Shown: in pieces, positions 2,658-41,538 of the stretch
Position numbering within the stretch: position 1 is the stretch's first letter
Layout of the letters: each line of letters opens with the position of its first letter
Assembly: GCF_022808595.1 (NCBI RefSeq)
Contig: NZ_JAKUCN010000001.1
Span: forward strand, 744,001 to 808,000
DNA from: Microvirga solisilvae
GTDB lineage: Bacteria > Pseudomonadota > Alphaproteobacteria > Rhizobiales > Beijerinckiaceae
Direction: 5' to 3'
Length of the DNA: 64,000 nt
Notes under the pieces: model-generated
Databases searched by the model: none
What the model was told of the DNA's origin: nothing
Seen by the model: only the letters and a program-made list of their open reading frames with translations
Translations under genes and position numbers: made by a program

Positions 2658-4997
2658 ATGAACGCGCTCCCTCCCTTTCCTTCCACGCTCGGCACTCAAG
2701 ACATCGGCATCGCACGTGCAGCTGTGATCGGGGCAGGGTCCATGGGATCCGGTATTGCAGCGCAATTCGCCAATGCCGGCATTCCTGTCGACCTGCTCGA
2801 CATAAAGGGAACAGGCGCTTCGCCAAATGGCCCGGCCGAAGCCGGTATCGAGCGACAATCGAAGGCAAACGGATTCATGCATCCTGCAGCCGCCCAGCTC
2901 GTGCGGCCCGGCAATATCGAGGACGACCTTCAGCGCCTCTCGGAAGCCGATTGGATCATCGAGGCGGTCGTCGAACGGCTCGACGTCAAGCGCGACCTCT
3001 ACGGGAAGATCGACAGGGTCAGGAAAAAGGGATCCGTCGTTTCGTCCAACACATCCACGATCCCCCGCGCCGACCTGATCGCAGAGCAAGGCCCGGCCTT
3101 TGCGGCGGATTTCCTCATCACGCATTTCTTCAACCCTCCGCGCGTCATGCGGCTCGTGGAGATCGTGAGCGCTTCCGAAAATTCGCCTGAGCTTGTTCAA
3201 CGCGCCAAGGCAGCCTCCCATTCCATTCTCGGCAAGACCGTCGTGGATTGCCACGACACGCCGGGCTTCATCGCCAACCGCATCGGCTGCTACTGGCTGG
3301 CCGTTGCGGCGCTCGAAGCGAAGAGCATGGGCCTCACCGTCGAAGAAGCCGACGCCGTAATGGCCGCTTTCGGCTCACCACGCACGGGAGCCTTTGGCCT
3401 GCTCGATTTGATCGGCATCGACCTCATCCCGCATGTGTGGGGCAGCCTGATGAGCGCCCTTCCCGCCTCGGACGGCATCCATGCTTACGACCTGCCGTCC
3501 GACCTTACGGTGCAAGGCATGATCGCGGCGGGGCACTTGGGGCGGAAAGCCAAAAGTGGTTTCTACCGCGTCAATGCCGACAAAACGCGCGAGGCGCTCG
3601 ATCTCTCAACCGGCCTCTACCGCCCTGAAGCGCCGCTCGATGCGGCCTCGCTTCCCGGCAAGGGCCGCGATCTCGCAGCCCTCCTGCAATCCGACGATCG
3701 GCTCGGTCGCTATGCTTGGCGAGTTCTGTCGCGCCTCATTGCCTACACCGCCGAAGTCGGTCCGGAAATCGCAAAGGACGTGGCCGCCATCGATACCGCC
3801 ATGGAGCTCGGCTATGCCTGGCGTGAAGGCCCCTTCAAGCTGGCGGAGCGCTGCGGGATCGAACAGCTCGCAGAACGCCTGAAGCAGGACGGCGGCGACG
3901 TGCCTGCCCTTCTGGCATCCGCGCTCAAGAACGGCGGCTTCTATGCCAAGGATACGAGCTTGCCGCTTCGCACCGATGGCGCGCGCGCGCAGGCCACGGA
4001 TCATAGCAGCGATCTCGCCCTGCCTGCGATCAAGTTTCGTCGACCGAAGATCCTCGGCAATGAGGGGGCTTCGCTGTGGGATGCGGGTAACGGCGTGACC
4101 TGCTTCGAGATCCACACGAAGATGAACAGTCTCACCCCGGCCGTCTTCGATGCGCTGGACCAAAGCCTGCAGAAGACCGCTTCGGACTTTCGCGGCCTCG
4201 TCATCGGCAACGACAATCCGCGTGTTTTCTCCGCAGGTGCTGACCTATCTTATTTTGTCGATCTCGTGCGCAAGGAAGATTGGGCCGCCCTGTCCGCGTT
4301 CCTCTCGCGGGGACAGGACCTCTTCATGCGCGTGAAGCACGCGCCCTTCCCCGTGGTTGCCGCTGTCGCCGGTCTTGCGCTCGGTGGCGGCTGCGAGCTG
4401 ATGCTTCACTGCGATGCTATCGTCGCTCATGCGGAATTGGCGGTAGGACTTCCCGAAACCAAGGTTGGTATCGTGCCCGGTTGGGGCGGCTGCACGCAGC
4501 TGATGCTGCGGACGCAGGAGCGGGGCAGCGATCCTGTTATGAATGTGCAGAGGGCATTCAACACTATTCTCACGGGCGCTCCCTCCTCCTCGGCCCTTGA
4601 TGCCTGGGAGAAAGGGCTGCTCCGGTCGAGTGACGCCATCGTCATGAATCCAGACGATCTTCTTGGCAGAGCGGTCGCACGCGCAGCCTCGTTAGCGGAT
4701 GCGAGATATCGCGCGCCTGAGCCTGCGACGATTTCACTTTCCGGATCGGCGGGGAAAGATGCGCTTATGGAGCGCATTCATAAGCAGCGGGAAACGCTTC
4801 GCCTTACCGAGACGGACATCATCGTTGCCGAGACCCTCGCCTCCGTTCTCACGGGCGCAGCCCTCTCCAGGGACACGGCCTCCGAGAACGACATGCTGGC
4901 CTTGGAGCGGGAAGCCGTGCTTGCCCTTGCCAAGACGCCGGCGACGCGGGAGCGCATTGAGCACATGCTCGCGACAGGAAAGCCGCTACGCAATTGA
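2658..4997 (+). CDS. fadN: 3-hydroxyacyl-CoA dehydrogenase / enoyl-CoA hydratase, FadN type
   Basis: This two-domain beta-oxidation enzyme of 779 residues hydrates 2-enoyl-CoA and oxidises the 3-hydroxyacyl-CoA with NAD+. The dehydrogenase comes first: the Rossmann motif GAGSMG spans residues 25-30, and HFFNPP lies near 155. The hydratase domain occupies the C-terminal third, with the oxyanion region FSAGADL and both expected glutamates (GGGCEL and GLPETKVGIVPG). This order is the reverse of FadB/FadJ and matches Bacillus FadN, also about 790 residues. The ATG at 2658 is taken as the start. It stands alone on the plus strand and converges with the transglutaminase gene, yet belongs functionally with the thiolase, ligase and acyl-CoA dehydrogenase nearby. 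Confidence 0.9.
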   Translation: MNALPPFPSTLGTQDIGIARAAVIGAGSMGSGIAAQFANAGIPVDLLDIKGTGASPNGPAEAGIERQSKANGFMHPAAAQLVRPGNIEDDLQRLSEADWIIEAVVERLDVKRDLYGKIDRVRKKGSVVSSNTSTIPRADLIAEQGPAFAADFLITHFFNPPRVMRLVEIVSASENSPELVQRAKAASHSILGKTVVDCHDTPGFIANRIGCYWLAVAALEAKSMGLTVEEADAVMAAFGSPRTGAFGLLDLIGIDLIPHVWGSLMSALPASDGIHAYDLPSDLTVQGMIAAGHLGRKAKSGFYRVNADKTREALDLSTGLYRPEAPLDAASLPGKGRDLAALLQSDDRLGRYAWRVLSRLIAYTAEVGPEIAKDVAAIDTAMELGYAWREGPFKLAERCGIEQLAERLKQDGGDVPALLASALKNGGFYAKDTSLPLRTDGARAQATDHSSDLALPAIKFRRPKILGNEGASLWDAGNGVTCFEIHTKMNSLTPAVFDALDQSLQKTASDFRGLVIGNDNPRVFSAGADLSYFVDLVRKEDWAALSAFLSRGQDLFMRVKHAPFPVVAAVAGLALGGGCELMLHCDAIVAHAELAVGLPETKVGIVPGWGGCTQLMLRTQERGSDPVMNVQRAFNTILTGAPSSSALDAWEKGLLRSSDAIVMNPDDLLGRAVARAASLADARYRAPEPATISLSGSAGKDALMERIHKQRETLRLTETDIIVAETLASVLTGAALSRDTASENDMLALEREAVLALAKTPATRERIEHMLATGKPLRN

Positions 4998-5010
4998 TGT
5001 GCGGTCAGGG

Positions 5011-5685
5011 TTAAGAAGCCGAAGCTTCGGCTTCTTCCTCCATTCGTCCCCGGTATCCTCCGGGTCTGCACAATACCGGATAAAGGCGTGTCATCTCGCG
5101 CATGAGGAATTTCGTCGGCACGTCGAAGAATGTGCCGTGATTGAACACGTAATCCATGAAGGCCCGCCCATCACCATCAAAGGGCTGGAACAAAGCATCG
5201 CCAGTGCCGTCGAAGTCGAGCGGCGTAACACCGAGCTTGGCGCAGAGGCTTGCATTGAAGGTCGGTGTCGCCTTCAACCAACGGCCGCCGAGATAAACCT
5301 CCACATAGCCGTGATAGGAAAACACGTCCGTACCGACCGCCTCCAGAAGACGCGGGGTCGCGAGGTGATTTCGCACATCCGACAAGCCGACCCGCACAGG
5401 AATACCAACCGCACGGCACAAAGCCGCATAAAGGGCGGCCTTGCCGACGCAATAGCCATGACCAGAACTGAGAACGCTGCTGCCACGGAAGCTCTCGCGG
5501 TCAGTGTAGTCCACATAAGGATCGTAGCGAATTCCATCCCGCACAGCGTCGTAGAGTGCCCTTGCCCGTTCTGCATCAGAGTCGATTCCGCGTGTCACCA
5601 TCTCGGCATGCTGCCGGATGGCGGGATGATCGCTGTCCACATATTCGGCAGGGCTAAGATAAAGGCGCTGCTCGGTTACATTCAT
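5011..5685 (-). CDS. Transglutaminase-like cysteine protein
   Basis: The protein has 224 residues and carries a transglutaminase-like core. The nucleophile region is SSGHGYCVGKAALYAAL with Cys79, followed by His125 in YHGYVEVYLGGRW. The position usually held by the catalytic Asp reads KATPTFN, with Thr140 where Asp is common; this variant recurs in small bacterial members of the family. No signal peptide is seen, so it is probably cytoplasmic. Substrate and reaction are unknown; family members can be cross-linkers, peptidases or amidases. It is the last gene of the leftward acyl-CoA group, 32 bp after the tetR-type gene. The acidic C-terminus (EEEAEASAS) is encoded by the palindrome at the operon end. 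Confidence 0.75.
   Translation of the reverse strand: MNVTEQRLYLSPAEYVDSDHPAIRQHAEMVTRGIDSDAERARALYDAVRDGIRYDPYVDYTDRESFRGSSVLSSGHGYCVGKAALYAALCRAVGIPVRVGLSDVRNHLATPRLLEAVGTDVFSYHGYVEVYLGGRWLKATPTFNASLCAKLGVTPLDFDGTGDALFQPFDGDGRAFMDYVFNHGTFFDVPTKFLMREMTRLYPVLCRPGGYRGRMEEEAEASAS
5013..5036. terminator. 24-bp perfect palindrome between convergent genes
   Basis: AAGAAGCCGAAG is followed directly by CTTCGGCTTCTT. It lies 15 bp after the fadN stop and overlaps the last codons and the stop of the convergent gene. As RNA it would fold with a short AAGCTT loop on either strand. The plus-strand transcript continues into a pyrimidine-rich TTCCTCC. It is probably a bidirectional terminator, but the T-tract is weak. 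Confidence 0.45.
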
Positions 5686-5717
5686 GACGCAGTCCCTTCC
5701 CTTGTCCCTCGAAACCG

Positions 5718-6437
5718 TCAGGAGGCCCGACTAGCGGGTTTTCGGAGAGCTTTTGATGGAGATGCAGGAACATTAGCTGCGGCGAGCTTCATCCCGGTCT
5801 TTCCGTTCGCCTTGCGTGTGGCCTGTCCCACACCTCCAACACCATTGACCAGCAGATCGATCATCTGGTCCGCAAGCTGTTCGGGATCGAGCGGCCCGCG
5901 TGGATCGTACCAGCGGGCGATCCAGCTCAATGCGCCTGCTGCGGCAAAGGCTGCCATCTTGGGATCGCAGGGACGGATCGAGCCATCCTCAATTCCTTCC
6001 GTGATGACGGACCGGAAACGTTTGTCGATCCGCCCTTTGAGCGCGCGGAGCTCCTTGCGCGTAGACGGCGGCAGCGGATCCTCGCCCACGAGAATGAGGC
6101 AGCGGCCGAAATCCTCCGTTACGATCCGCACATAAACGCGCCAGAGCGCGATCAGCTTCGCAAGACCAGTCGCATCAGTGCCTTCGATCTGAGCCGACGC
6201 ATCCTCCAGCATCTCCAAGCCGATGCGGACGCATTCGAAGAGGATCTGATCCTTGTTCTTCACATAGTAATAGATTGTCGGCTTCGTGACGTTCAGCCGC
6301 TCGGCCACATCATCGAGGGATGTCTTGTGAAAGCCGTTCTCGTTGAAGGCCTGAGCGGCAGCCCGCAGCACGGCATCGCGCTTGACTTCGCGCTCCTTCT
6401 GCCGGTCGGCGGGCTTTTTCCACGGGGATGCCGTCAT
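5718..6437 (-). CDS. TetR/AcrR-family transcriptional regulator
   Basis: The protein has 239 residues. An N-terminal helix-turn-helix is evident: residues reading FNENGFHKTSLDDVAERLNV, then TKPTIYYYVKNKDQIL, the hallmark TetR recognition region. The C-terminal all-helical domain should bind the ligand. The start at 6437 is preferred over upstream frames because AGGA sits 5 nt before that ATG. It lies 96 bp behind the thiolase on the same strand, so it may be co-transcribed with the acyl-CoA genes or use its own promoter. By position it is the likely repressor of the pathway, sensing an acyl-CoA, as FadR-like TetR proteins do; this is inference. Confidence 0.85.
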   Translation of the reverse strand: MTASPWKKPADRQKEREVKRDAVLRAAAQAFNENGFHKTSLDDVAERLNVTKPTIYYYVKNKDQILFECVRIGLEMLEDASAQIEGTDATGLAKLIALWRVYVRIVTEDFGRCLILVGEDPLPPSTRKELRALKGRIDKRFRSVITEGIEDGSIRPCDPKMAAFAAAGALSWIARWYDPRGPLDPEQLADQMIDLLVNGVGGVGQATRKANGKTGMKLAAANVPASPSKALRKPASRAS

Positions 6438-36859: not shown

Positions 36860-36985
36860 CCCAGGCGCCTCGGAATCGGTCATCGCAAAGCCGGATGAGC
36901 AGCCTAGGAACCCATTTGGCAGGCAGATGTCATACTGAAGCTTGAGAGCAAGGGGGTAAAACTGCCGAAAAGTTCAAGGAAAGAA

Positions 36986-37031
36986 TGGTCGGAGCGAGAG
37001 GATTTGAACCTCCGACCCCTAGTCCCCCAGA
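36986..37031 (-). other. attachment site: 3' half of tRNA-Pro(GGG)
   Basis: On the minus strand these 46 bases read from the anticodon loop (CTGGGGG, anticodon GGG) through anticodon-stem 3' arm ACTAG, a variable loop, a T-arm GGAGG-TTCAAAT-CCTCT, the acceptor strand CGCTCCG, A and CCA. Upstream of the loop the sequence does not form the matching stem, D-arm or acceptor 5' strand, so this is not a functional tRNA. An isolated 3' tRNA half next to phage genes is the typical distal att scar; the intact gene is expected at the other end of the element. Confidence 0.85.
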
Positions 37032-37141
37032 CCGATAGCCCTGACAGATAAGCTCATGTTCCAATTGATCTATTTTATCCACACTTGAAAACGTGAGTGC
37101 TTTCGTGGGTGGTTGCTTGCGGGAACATCCGACGAGCCATT

Positions 37142-37408
37142 TTAGCTCGCCAGAGACGACATCGGCGGCAGGCTGAAAGTCGCCCCATTCACCACCTCTG
37201 TCCGGCCAGCGGGCGAGGTCGAGGCGATGATTCCGGTCGGGCCGTGCAATGACACCTTGATCCAAGGATAGACCCGGGCGGCGCGTTCATAAGCAGCCCG
37301 CGCCAATGTCAGGTCCGACGCCGAGCAGACCGGGGCGACGGCACAAATGTCACCTTCGGCGCCAATATGAACAGTGTAGCGAATAGACGTCATGTCTGCC
37401 TGCCCCAT
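37142..37408 (-). CDS. Small hypothetical protein at the prophage edge
   Basis: A protein of 88 residues if started at the ATG at 37408; an alternative ATG at 37393 gives MTSIRYTVHIGAEG. It is not recognised. The sequence is soluble, with an alternating beta pattern (YTVHIGAEGDICAVAPVC) followed by a helix (DLTLARAAYERAARVY) and a C-terminal strand region (IKVSLHGPTGIIAS). It lies alone between the late-operon terminator and the att site, behind its own AT-rich upstream region. That layout is typical of a lysogeny-expressed accessory (moron) gene. Confidence 0.6.
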   Translation of the reverse strand: MGQADMTSIRYTVHIGAEGDICAVAPVCSASDLTLARAAYERAARVYPWIKVSLHGPTGIIASTSPAGRTEVVNGATFSLPPMSSLAS

Positions 37409-37627
37409 GATTGATCCCAATTAATATTTGGTTATGAGAACAAAAGTAGACCATATAAACAGGGGGGATCGTCAATAGAACGATATTCTAGCCCGCTGCA
37501 TAGCAATCTTGCGATTTTGCGGGGCGGTCAAAAACCCTTGGAAATTCAGGGTTACAGCCTAAGTATCGGTCAGAATGTCGCAGCAAAAGGGGGGTGTGGG
37601 TTGTTGTGGATCAAGGCGCACGAACAC
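37409..37627. promoter_or_regulatory. AT-rich upstream region of the edge gene
   Basis: This stretch is markedly richer in A and T than the surrounding phage DNA around 37425-37490. On the minus strand TTGACG (37470-37475) and TATGGT (37450-37455) could form a promoter, but the spacing of 14 bp is short. No gene is seen between this and the terminator. Confidence 0.35.
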
Positions 37628-37663
37628 AAAAAAGCCCACCTTGGCGGTGTCGCCAAGGTGGGC
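37628..37663 (-). terminator. Strong rho-independent terminator of the phage late operon
   Basis: A perfect 13-bp stem (GCCCACCTTGGCG and its complement, 37634-37663) with a 4-nt loop is followed on the minus strand by six T residues (37628-37633). It begins 5 bp after the stop of the nucleotide kinase gene, the last gene of the long minus-strand unit. Confidence 0.9.
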
Positions 37664-37668
37664 AAAAG

Positions 37669-38241
37669 TCAAGAGAGATCAACACTGGACATAAGGCGGT
37701 CGACCTGGACTTGGAGCGCCGCGATGGAAGCCTCGTTCTCGATCACCAGATCGGGCACACCCGGCAGGATCTCCGAGGCGTGATCCGATTGCGGGCCGAC
37801 ACCCGGTCGGCGGATCTCGATAAGGACGCCACCCCGAGCCCGGATGGCTTCGGCCTCCTCCTTGAACCGCACACTCTCCTGGACGATCCTTGCGCCTGAT
37901 AGTAGAGCAGCCTCGATCTTACGCAACCATAAAGAGAGCCACAGATCAGGGCGGATGCAGTTCCGCCCCCACTCGGTGCCCAGCGTCTGCTGCGCAAAGG
38001 TGGACGTGACACCGAGTTCCGGGATCACCGCGCGCTTGAGATCGCCGTCGACATAGCGGGCGATCGTCTCTGCGTCATAGCCGATCTCCTGGAGCAACCC
38101 CTCCATCATTGCCTTCACAGGGCGGATGATATGCGGCGAGAGAAAACCGTGCCGGTCCCGCAGGCGCTTGGCCACCTCGCTCTTTCCCGCACCGGCATAG
38201 CCCATCAGGCCGATGAGGCGCGGCGGACTCACGCCCGCCAT
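37669..38241 (-). CDS. P-loop kinase, probable phage deoxynucleoside monophosphate kinase
   Basis: This 190-residue protein starts at 38241, overlapping the upstream gene by 13 bp; the longer upstream extension is that gene in another frame. It opens with a Walker A motif, GYAGAGKS (14-21), preceded by a short strand (RLIGLM). It then has helical lid-like segments rich in Arg, and SGARIVQESVRFKEEAEAI followed by GGVLIEIRRPGVG. This matches phage (d)NMP kinases, which phosphorylate nucleotides for DNA synthesis, but the exact substrate is not readable. It is the last gene before the terminator. Confidence 0.7.
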   Translation of the reverse strand: MAGVSPPRLIGLMGYAGAGKSEVAKRLRDRHGFLSPHIIRPVKAMMEGLLQEIGYDAETIARYVDGDLKRAVIPELGVTSTFAQQTLGTEWGRNCIRPDLWLSLWLRKIEAALLSGARIVQESVRFKEEAEAIRARGGVLIEIRRPGVGPQSDHASEILPGVPDLVIENEASIAALQVQVDRLMSSVDLS

Positions 38242-39899
38242 TTGCCGTCCTGGAACGTTACCAGGGTCCGCTTGCCGTTCGGATAGGTGAGAGTATGCGC
38301 CTGCATCCATGACGAGGGTCCGGTGTTGTAGCCGTGATTGAGCCGCGCCGACACGCCCGCGATATAGATCCCCTCGAGGATCGTCGGCGTGTGGGTGTGA
38401 GCCGTGTTCATCTTGCGGGCGACACGGCTGAGCGAAACCGCCGAGCCACGCGAGCCGTTCGGCCCCTGGTGTCCGTGCTGGCCGCATTCGATGGCGCCCA
38501 CGCCCTGACAGATTTCGAAGGAACCACCCTCGGGTACGAAAGCGATGCCGGCGAGCCCTTTTGTATCCCGGGTCGCCAGGGCATGACGGAACAGGGAAAA
38601 GCGCTCCGCCTCGTCGTCAAGGGGATCGCGGGTCGCCTCGACGCGCCGGGCGGCAAAGCGCGCCCGCTCCATATCGAGAAAGAACTCCGCGTTGACGGGG
38701 TCCTGGCGATACCCGCCGCCGCCGAGGGAATCGAGCCAACGGTCCAGGAAACGGTCGTGATTGGATTCCACCACCACCGACTTGCACCAGTCCCGCTCCG
38801 CGGCGCGCAGGAACCCCACGGCCTCGCGGACCTCGTCCTCGACGCTGTCGCGGCCCGCCACATGGGTCTCGAAGACGTGCAGCGGGTCCTTCTTCAGTTC
38901 GTGCGGGTTGCGGGCCTCGAAATCGAGCAGGTCGTGGAAGAACTGGAAGCGCGGGCGCAGCGCGTCGACAATGGAATCGGAGGATTCCATCCGTCGCGTC
39001 AGCGGATCATAGCCCCAGGTCGCGCGCGCGATCAGCGGATCGAGCTTGCGCACATGGATGTCACCCCAGGTGGCCGCCTCGATGCGATGGCCGCGCGACA
39101 CGATGCCATTCGACACCATCGTATCGAGATCCTGAAACGACCCATCAGGCGCGGCATTGATCTGGCGGCAGAACACCCTGTCGCGCTCGTCAATCTCGAC
39201 GATGGTCGCCCCGATCACATGGTGAAAGGCGGCCTTCACGCCCGCCTTGCGCTCCGTATAGTTCGGCACCGTGGCGCAGCCGGTGGTCATCACCTGCGAG
39301 GCGTGCCCGTTCCGCACGCCCGCCACGGAAAGCAGCTGCAGCTTGGCGTGAGGCACGAGGCCCCAATGCCCGCGGGCATGGGTGACGAGGTCCGAGATCG
39401 GACGAGACGCGGTCGGCAGAGTGTTCATATCGGCCATGAACACCAGCGGCCCCAGCTCGATGCGCTTGCGCGACAGATAAGGCACCAGCTCGGGGCTGAA
39501 CATTTCCGGGCGCGGGCCATGCTCGTCGAACAGGCCGAGCTGGTAGGTAAAGGGCCCCACCAGGAGCTCGGCGCCGAGCGCCGACGCATAGGCGTGCAGG
39601 TTGGACCAGAAGCCGCGATGAATCTCGGTGGCATTCTGCGCTGCCGTGACCAGATAGCGGCGCACGCGCGCCGGCACGATGATGGTGGAACGCGGTGCCA
39701 CGCCCGTGACAGACGCCCCACCCCGCCCGTCCGCGATCTTCTTCTTGATGCGCCAGGCTGATCGCCGCCCGACCCCCAGCGCATCGGCGTGATGCGCTGG
39801 GGGGATCTCGGGCTGCTCTCGAATGCGACGCTCCAGCTCCGCCTCGACGGCGGGCGCGATGTGTTGCCCCTGAACAGGCTTTCTGCCGTGTTGTTTCAT
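38229..39899 (-). CDS. Helix-turn-helix protein with calcineurin-like metallophosphoesterase domain
   Basis: This 556-residue protein has a basic N-terminal helix-turn-helix (residues about 28-56, PPAHHADALGVGRRSAWRI), a middle region, and a metallophosphoesterase core recognisable by its ordered metal-ligand motifs: D280-I-H282 (WGDIHVRKLD), N380-H381-D382 (ESNHDRF), H475-G-H477 (CGQHGHQG) and H501-T-H503 (TAHTHTP). This order (DxH, NHD, H, HxH) is that of calcineurin-like phosphoesterases such as Mre11/SbcD nucleases and phosphodiesterases. The presence of a DNA-binding module suggests a nuclease, by analogy with phage T5 A1; this is inference. It sits between the membrane proteins and the nucleotide kinase. 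Confidence 0.7.
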   Translation of the reverse strand: MKQHGRKPVQGQHIAPAVEAELERRIREQPEIPPAHHADALGVGRRSAWRIKKKIADGRGGASVTGVAPRSTIIVPARVRRYLVTAAQNATEIHRGFWSNLHAYASALGAELLVGPFTYQLGLFDEHGPRPEMFSPELVPYLSRKRIELGPLVFMADMNTLPTASRPISDLVTHARGHWGLVPHAKLQLLSVAGVRNGHASQVMTTGCATVPNYTERKAGVKAAFHHVIGATIVEIDERDRVFCRQINAAPDGSFQDLDTMVSNGIVSRGHRIEAATWGDIHVRKLDPLIARATWGYDPLTRRMESSDSIVDALRPRFQFFHDLLDFEARNPHELKKDPLHVFETHVAGRDSVEDEVREAVGFLRAAERDWCKSVVVESNHDRFLDRWLDSLGGGGYRQDPVNAEFFLDMERARFAARRVEATRDPLDDEAERFSLFRHALATRDTKGLAGIAFVPEGGSFEICQGVGAIECGQHGHQGPNGSRGSAVSLSRVARKMNTAHTHTPTILEGIYIAGVSARLNHGYNTGPSSWMQAHTLTYPNGKRTLVTFQDGKWRA

Positions 39900-39919: not shown

Positions 39920-40288
39920 TCAGGCCCCAGGCTGCGATGGCGGTTTGATCTGCGGCAGCGCACGCTTGCCCCCGATCAGGTTCACCAGTAATTGAGGCAG
40001 CTCGAGACCGGTCGTGCCGATGAAGAAGCCCAGCGCCGCCATCACGCTGGCCTCGTCGAGCACGATGGCGGCGTTCAGGAAATGCGCCGTGGCCCATTCC
40101 ATCACCCGGATCGCGACGGGCGTCAGCGGCGGGGTGAGATAGTAGGACACGGCGGCCCCTGAGAACCCGCTGGCAAGCCGTAGCCACCAGGGGCCGCGGG
40201 TGCGGATGACCGCCACGGCGCCGCCGGTGGCCGAACTGACGAGGGAGGCGGCTTTCACGCCCATGATGGTGGTTGCAGGCTCGGCCAT
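39920..40288 (-). CDS. Phage membrane protein, possible holin
   Basis: This 122-residue protein has a hydrophobic segment near residues 10-25, an Arg-rich interruption (RTRGPWWLRL), and two further hydrophobic stretches (LASGFSGAAVSYYLTPPL and VMAALGFFIGTTGLELPQLLVNLI). The C-terminus is polar. Small size, multiple spans and location next to the endolysin suggest a holin or lysis-accessory role. No specific family is recognised. Confidence 0.6.
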   Translation of the reverse strand: MAEPATTIMGVKAASLVSSATGGAVAVIRTRGPWWLRLASGFSGAAVSYYLTPPLTPVAIRVMEWATAHFLNAAIVLDEASVMAALGFFIGTTGLELPQLLVNLIGGKRALPQIKPPSQPGA

Positions 40289-40318: not shown

Positions 40319-40711
40319 TTAGGAGAAGAGCGGCTTCGTCGCCGTGCGGGCACGGCGCGACAGATACGCGGCCACGAGATTGCCGCCATACCAACACAAG
40401 GCACCGGCTGCGATCTGATACTCGGCCGGGATGTTGTAGCCGATAGCCAGCGCGACGGCGGGCGCGACCAGTGACACGAGCGTCGACCAGTTCGCCCGCG
40501 AGCGGAAGAAATCCTCCGTGCTCTGCAGATGCTGGATCTCTGGAGTCTGCTGCACCCTCTCGACGATCTCCCGCGCCGTCGCGGCGGACACTTGGGCCGG
40601 GAGCTTCGATTCCAGCGGGATGGCCGGGTTTTTGATGCTGTCCTGGATCGTATCCAAGACAGCGCCGAAGATCAGCTTCGGCAGAATGGTGGCAAGAGCA
40701 GGTGCTGCCAT
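40319..40711 (-). CDS. Phage membrane protein resembling GTA-type 3TM holin
   Basis: This 130-residue protein begins MAAPALATILPKLIFGAVLDTI and has a central amphipathic region (IVERVQQTPEIQHLQSTEDFFRS), then RANWSTLVSLVAPAVALAIGY and IAAGALCWYGGNLVAAYL as two spans, ending in a basic tail. The layout is that of the 3TM holin-like proteins found with alphaproteobacterial phages and gene transfer agents. It directly follows the endolysin gene. Confidence 0.6.
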   Translation of the reverse strand: MAAPALATILPKLIFGAVLDTIQDSIKNPAIPLESKLPAQVSAATAREIVERVQQTPEIQHLQSTEDFFRSRANWSTLVSLVAPAVALAIGYNIPAEYQIAAGALCWYGGNLVAAYLSRRARTATKPLFS

Positions 40712-40720
40712 GGAGGCCTC

Positions 40721-41512
40721 CTAGGGGATCATTTGTTTGAGGGTTGTGGGGTCGATGCCGAAAACGGCGGCGAGCGCGAGGATCGCGCCGACAAGCGCAG
40801 ATGTGCTGATGGTGACCGCTGCCGGAATCTGGGGAACCTGAACGGGCGGCGGAGCCTCCGGCGACCACGGCGTGTCCCTGATCTTCCGCCATTTCTCGAA
40901 GGCGATCGGCAGCTTCAGGTGATAGCCGTTCTTCGCATAGCCGGGGCCGTTATAGCCGCGCGCGAGCGCCTCCCATCGATGCTCGCGCAGATCGTCATCG
41001 AGACGATTGGCGATGAGGAAGGAGACCATCGCATCAAGGTGCGTTTCCTCGTCCGCCATGAAGGCCAGCACCATGCTCTGCGGGGTGTCATAGCCCGCGT
41101 CGAGATGGTTCTCGCCGAGGATCTGCGCCAGACCCCACGAGCACGCCTTGAGGGCCGCGGTCTCGTCGATGCGCAGCGCCTTCTCGAGCTTGCCGTATTG
41201 CGCGGATTCCTTGCCGTAGGGAATCTGCCCCCAGGACTTGCAGGCAAGCCCCTGACGGATCGCCGTATCGAGCTTCGTACCCGACAGGTTGCGATAGAAC
41301 ACATGCGGCTCGAACAGGATCTTGGGGCGCCCCTGCTCATCAAAGCCGCTGCCTCGGGTTTCGACATCCATGAAGGCATGGATCTCGTCCTCGCCGACGC
41401 CGATGCGATGGCCGATGCGCGGCAGATCGATATCGTCGAGCCGCTTGGCCGCCCCTCTGAAGCCGCTCGCAACAGCGCGCGCGAAGGCATCCCCGGTGTT
41501 TTCCGTGGTCAT
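40721..41512 (-). CDS. Endolysin, N-acetylmuramidase family, with C-terminal hydrophobic tail
   Basis: This 263-residue protein starts at 41512, with AGGACGAG 7 nt upstream; the longer frame would need a TTG start. The N-terminal 190 residues match the N-acetylmuramidase family (PF11860): E51 in MDVETRGSGFD is the likely catalytic acid, followed by KILFEPHVFYR and the C-terminal ARGYNGPGYAKNGYH. After a Pro-rich linker (PEAPPPVQVPQIP) comes a hydrophobic segment (TSALVGAILALAAVFGI), so the enzyme may be membrane-tethered. It cleaves peptidoglycan glycan strands for lysis. Confidence 0.85.
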   Translation of the reverse strand: MTTENTGDAFARAVASGFRGAAKRLDDIDLPRIGHRIGVGEDEIHAFMDVETRGSGFDEQGRPKILFEPHVFYRNLSGTKLDTAIRQGLACKSWGQIPYGKESAQYGKLEKALRIDETAALKACSWGLAQILGENHLDAGYDTPQSMVLAFMADEETHLDAMVSFLIANRLDDDLREHRWEALARGYNGPGYAKNGYHLKLPIAFEKWRKIRDTPWSPEAPPPVQVPQIPAAVTISTSALVGAILALAAVFGIDPTTLKQMIP

Positions 41513-41538
41513 ATTGATCTCGTCCTGTGGTGACAAGG

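Follow-up and report, generated by a model that had tools for sequence, protein, structure and literature searches.

Phage T5 depends on its A1 protein both to degrade host DNA and to carry out second-step DNA transfer (PMC13250531; PMC3556154), and A1 mutants are described as defective in DNA transfer, gene shut-off and the breakdown of host DNA (PMC3556154). The role of A1 has been argued for decades, with the requirement in host DNA breakdown set against a role in transcription. The protein is too toxic for expression in E. coli and has been found in RNA polymerase preparations (PMC7472727); it has been called a putative DNase (PMC7232257), whereas a 2021 genome paper noted that nuclease activity of T5 A1 had not been reported and preferred an RNA polymerase role (PMC8541194). 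The phiCbK authors also preferred such a role, citing a TyrR-like N-terminus, and as early as 2012 noted a helix-turn-helix (HTH) in front of the A1 homologue of that phage (PMC3556154). Here, we describe a known family in unusual deployment: a T5 A1-type protein encoded late in a temperate phage.

The window, a stretch of 64,000 nucleotides from Microvirga solisilvae (contig NZ_JAKUCN010000001.1, positions 744,001 to 808,000), contains the A1 end of a 48.2 kb prophage (contig positions 780976 to 829212) that sits in tRNA-Pro(GGG) and carries contractile-tailed phage genes (Table 1). An integrase of the PF00589 family lies at the prophage end far from attL. A host gene was considered and ruled out, as A1 lies inside the pair of 57-bp att repeats together with this integrase, and the closest relative (L002, 86% identity) has the same gene pair. 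Genes for terminase, portal, head, sheath, tape measure, baseplate, fibres, endolysin and a holin-like protein precede A1 on the same strand. A1 starts 20 nt behind the end of the holin-like ORF, its 3' end is overlapped by 13 nt by the ATG region of a deoxynucleoside monophosphate (dNMP) kinase gene, and a strong terminator-like stem follows one gene later, in line with the first-pass annotation, which had placed the gene late, at the end of a morphogenetic operon. A search limited to the sigma-70 consensus found no separate promoter-like site for A1 in its vicinity on the same strand. Between the terminator-like stem and attL there is a 92-aa ORF (37142-37420, minus strand), possibly an accessory gene, and the part of the prophage beyond the window (contig 821688-825102) encodes a DNA polymerase III beta clamp, SSB and a PF01555 DNA methyltransferase.

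Table 1 Features of the A1 locus (positions in the window unless marked otherwise).
Feature	Position	Strand	Remarks
Endolysin, N-acetylmuramidase	40721..41536	-	PF11860 E 1.5e-49
130-aa ORF, lysis region	40319..40711	-	phrog_29088, no assigned function
Holin-like 122-aa ORF	39920..40288	-	phrog_13918 E 2.5e-9; phrog_2359 holin E 6.3e-6
A1-family protein, phage T5 A1 homologue	38229..39899	-	556 aa, ATG to TGA
N-terminal HTH, residues 16-56	39732..39854	-	predicted helices 16-28, 34-41, 45-56, mostly pLDDT >90
A1-specific middle domain, residues 77-268	39096..39671	-	predicted second metallophosphoesterase fold; modelled alone
Catalytic metallophosphoesterase domain, residues 272-553	38241..39086	-	structural matches
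Motif I, D280-I-H282	39054..39062	-	D280 47/47, H282 46/47
Motif II, H322-D323	38931..38936	-	D323 47/47, H322 42/47
Motif III, N380-H381-D382	38754..38762	-	47/47, 47/47, 46/47
Motif IV, H475-G-H477	38469..38477	-	H475 (likely ligand) 47/47, H477 44/47
Motif V, H501-T-H503	38391..38399	-	H501 40/47, H503 47/47
dNMP kinase, 190 aa	37669..38241	-	phrog_139 E 9.6e-32 (longer ORF); PF21448 E 9.4e-8
Intrinsic-terminator-like stem, after kinase gene	37634..37663	-	13 pairs, T6; consensus match, putative
attL, 57-bp direct repeat of 3' part of tRNA-Pro(GGG)	36976..37032	.	other copy contig 829156-829212
Beta clamp, SSB, PF01555 methyltransferase region	L009:2688-3803, 4184-4675, 4966-6102		

The A1 gene is real and intact; a 475-aa ORF on the plus strand was taken as a GC-rich antisense artefact. 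Judged by profile and sequence similarity, its product is a member of the phage T5 A1 or 'DNA transfer protein' family: residues 77-555 match phrog_1745 (E=4e-164, model positions 84-541 of 542), residues 80-556 share 36% identity with T5 A1 (tblastn), and the protein matches 1,125 phage records (tblastn). The family is rare in the host's order (5/397 genomes, with the genome of the window counted), and further A1 genes in bacterial genomes and MAGs (L101, L106, L113, L114, L112 and L107; Rhizobiales, Sphingomonas, Rhodospira and the host's order) may mark further prophages. No Pfam model matched the protein at E<=1, those for metallophosphoesterases included, and no solved structure related by sequence to the family was found by phmmer or profile search. 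We therefore assign it to the metallophosphoesterase superfamily on fold and motifs.

Two-metal phosphoesterases carry their motifs in the order D-x-H, D, N-H, H, H-x-H, and the prophage A1 has the same order. Conservation was counted in an alignment of 47 sequences (the prophage A1 and 46 relatives from viral contigs), and the motifs were aligned a second time in ten named phages (T5 A1 and nine others). The set of five metallophosphoesterase motifs is complete and, across the 47 sequences, nearly invariant, a level of conservation that argues against chance matches. The first-pass annotation had located the ORF and the residues of four of these motifs exactly, and all four proved nearly invariant; it missed the fifth, H322-D323.

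Fold matches obtained by VIA-align re-ranking support the same assignment. The full-length AlphaFold2 model (pLDDT 88, pTM 0.82) predicts an HTH that a disordered linker separates from two more domains; Foldseek returned no match for it in the PDB at E<=0.001. The catalytic domain matched the 3'-5' proofreading subunit DP1 of PolD (Z 12.5), LpxH (Z 9.9) and Mre11/SbcD (Z 9.3). Model residue 274 aligned to residue 2 of LpxH and residue 273 to residue 1 of SbcD, which, assuming no gap, puts D280 and H282 at positions 8 and 10 of these alignments; position 10 of LpxH is the site changed in a deposited H10N mutant. The structural alignments, which put the first motif in register with the metal site of LpxH and SbcD, are consistent with convergence of the metal ligands in space, and the outcome that would have spoken against the first-pass annotation, a predicted fold lacking the two-metal centre, did not occur. 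Two further proposals made there, an HTH joined to a metallophosphoesterase and a resemblance to T5 A1 and Mre11/SbcD, were borne out. Contrary to the first-pass annotation, the combination is not unusual: a recognisable N-terminal HTH is present in most A1 relatives outside the T5 group, where it is the rule, and was noted for phiCbK in 2012. Pfam HTH models matched many of these relatives and did not match the prophage A1 itself.

The A1-specific domain ahead of the catalytic domain, which has 13 invariant columns, is predicted to fold as a second, apparently degenerate metallophosphoesterase. Modelled alone (pLDDT 90, pTM 0.87), it matched Vps29 best (Z 10.2, rmsd 3.2, 145 residues aligned), and among the matches listed nearly all were metallophosphoesterase-fold proteins. 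It is without canonical metal motifs and has instead the invariant residues Q88, Y119, P183-H184, T206-G207, Y214, H227 and R245. Since hhalign detected no sequence kinship between the two phosphoesterase domains (probability 0.1%) that would speak for a duplication, the proposed tandem layout is a matter of predicted fold. We found no report of T5 A1 as a metallophosphoesterase in the literature searched (preprints and most subscription papers lay outside the search), and the succession of HTH, inactive and active phosphoesterase cannot be claimed firmly as new.

Comparison with L002 gave a dN/dS of ~0.10 over the whole A1 gene, with dN 0.044 and dS 0.82 in the catalytic domain and dN 0.083 and dS 1.08 in the middle domain. 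Both phosphoesterase domains are under strong purifying selection, which argues that the middle domain is not decaying.

On the A1 tree, the prophage protein falls in a clade of 13 related proteins. The integrase matches in 8/10 viral records of this clade, together with the gene order, suggest that it represents a late-placed form of A1 from temperate phages. In two members (L021 and L026) an endolysin lies ahead of A1, and in most of the close relatives checked a nucleotide enzyme lies downstream. A phrog_139-like kinase follows A1 in seven close relatives (L002, L021, L024, L025, L026, L075 and L104), and L002 has the same A1-kinase overlap, with GTG as the kinase start. In L022, the protein after A1 has phrog_2252 (labelled endolysin) as its first PHROG match and a dATP/dGTP pyrophosphohydrolase as its second. 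A dNMP kinase beside A1 is not universal: phrog_139 matched in 21/40 records or genomes, in ~8 of these within 1 kb downstream (coordinates read by eye). That A1 is coupled to nucleotide enzymes time and again suggests that temperate phages of alphaproteobacteria carry a unit for recycling host DNA.

Our preferred reading, to which we give a probability of roughly 55%, is that A1 acts late, as an Mre11-like nuclease that breaks down host DNA and supplies nucleotides for phage replication. Upon induction of the temperate myophage, A1 would be expressed together with the lysis proteins, from the distal part of the late operon; the HTH, and possibly also the degenerate first metallophosphoesterase domain, would grip DNA; the second, two-metal domain would cleave it as Mre11/SbcD or the proofreading subunit of PolD does, and would in this way break down the host chromosome; and the overlapping dNMP kinase would phosphorylate the freed dNMPs for late phage DNA synthesis. 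The analysis itself establishes that A1 belongs to its family, that its metal motifs are complete, what fold is predicted, in what order the genes stand, that A1 and the kinase gene overlap, that a terminator-like element closes the operon, and where the prophage begins and ends. The nuclease activity of A1, DNA as its substrate, the late timing, the nucleotide recycling and the sparing of phage DNA are steps that we infer. Given the complete metal site and the fold, nuclease action is the likeliest mechanism, and the coupled dNMP kinase would have a use for its product. Among the three functions put forward in the first-pass annotation, DNA degradation is thus the one we favour, and nothing was found for phage-end processing or for counter-defence by cleavage of a cyclic nucleotide.

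Several points weigh against a nuclease of the lytic cycle. The fold does not fix the substrate, since the lipid enzyme LpxH reaches a score as good as that of Mre11. A nuclease made together with lysis genes must spare phage DNA, and nucleotide recycling so late may bring little gain. An A2-like partner was not found among the prophage ORFs, and neither was dmp (no phmmer match at E<=10 in a single-sequence search of low sensitivity). Both the 2021 genome paper and the phiCbK authors, as noted above, favoured RNA polymerase as the target. Furthermore, an att-proximal position is also typical of accessory cargo genes.

That A1 is mainly a transcription regulator, with its HTH on DNA, binding RNA polymerase and switching phage or host genes while the phosphoesterase is secondary, appears unlikely to us, though it must be reckoned with: it would account for T5 A1 in RNA polymerase preparations (PMC7472727), it was proposed by the phiCbK authors on the strength of the TyrR-like N-terminus (PMC3556154), and it accords with the three-helix HTH predicted in the prophage A1. 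However, the metal ligands are nearly invariant across a very diverse family, which would be unexpected were catalysis dispensable, and the HTH region is the part least conserved between the prophage A1 and L002, its nearest relative (57% identity, against 93% for the catalytic domain). The position at the very end of the lysis operon also points to late action.

A further proposal extends destruction of host DNA to the family as a whole. In 26/109 A1 loci (among them L005, L013, L014, L029, L040, L052 and L066), A1 is preceded on its strand by a phrog_799-type NPPY DNA methyltransferase gene, and nearly all such pairs overlap or lie within ~10 nt. Viewed from the other side, 18/80 related methyltransferase loci have A1 in the flank, nearly always directly downstream. 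At least four changes in this pairing are seen along the A1 tree, and in Cellulophaga phi4:1 (L015) a methyltransferase of another PHROG family occupies the same upstream place. As a general rule the pairing fails: it is found at only part of the loci and is absent from the M. solisilvae window, and the methyltransferase of this prophage is a different, unlinked one (PF01555), with no phrog_799-type gene next to A1. We consider it distinctly unlikely that A1 proteins in general are HTH-guided tandem metallophosphoesterases that destroy host DNA while a phage methyltransferase spares phage DNA, in effect a restriction system turned round.

It is quite improbable that A1 is a nuclease against incoming DNA, serving superinfection exclusion or an attack on competing phages or plasmids. 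An HTH joined to a nuclease-like fold would suit this role, as would the place adjoining attL, where accessory genes are common; the gene should nevertheless be silent in the lysogen, given its position 20 nt behind the holin-like gene and the result of the promoter search, and the link to a dNMP kinase would be left unexplained. We regard as equally improbable a role of A1 in phage DNA processing or repair (ends, concatemers, recombination) like that of Mre11/SbcD. The fold likeness is consistent with such a role, and elsewhere some A1 genes sit amid replication genes (DnaB helicase, polymerase, primase), but no SbcC/Rad50-like gene was seen among the annotated neighbours of A1, and the defects described for T5 A1 mutants concern DNA transfer, the shut-off of genes and the breakdown of host DNA (PMC3556154). 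A small-molecule phosphodiesterase cleaving a defence signal, for which the LpxH-like structural scores and the presence of nucleotide phosphodiesterases in the metallophosphoesterase superfamily might speak, is highly improbable in view of the HTH, T5 A1 genetics, the late place behind lysis genes and the fact that no such activity is reported for the A1 family in the literature found.

Through its predicted architecture of two phosphoesterase domains, which names the residues to change, A1 opens the nuclease reading to direct tests. A temperate-phage A1, possibly inducible from the lysogen, also provides a new place to test A1 function.

Compared with known systems, the middle domain resembles Vps29, a small member of the same fold; Vps29 is a eukaryotic retromer subunit, and the likeness in fold implies no shared role. 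The best structural match of the catalytic domain, PolD DP1 (211 residues aligned), is alike in fold only, at ~10% identity. Mre11/SbcD shares the metallophosphoesterase fold over ~180 residues with the first motif in register, at ~11% identity; the prophage A1 differs in having a second such fold and an HTH ahead, and in the SbcC/Rad50 partner not seen beside it. Against T5 A1, the contrast is one of setting: the T5 gene is pre-early and has A2 and dmp close by in the terminal repeat of a virulent phage, a location that belongs to the T5-type two-step takeover, whereas the prophage gene stands at the end of a temperate phage's late operon, after the lysis genes and joined to a dNMP kinase gene, with A2 not found. 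The N-terminal ~75 residues are without clear sequence similarity between the two, whereas the A1-specific and catalytic domains are homologous, the metal motifs are the same and each protein totals 556 aa.
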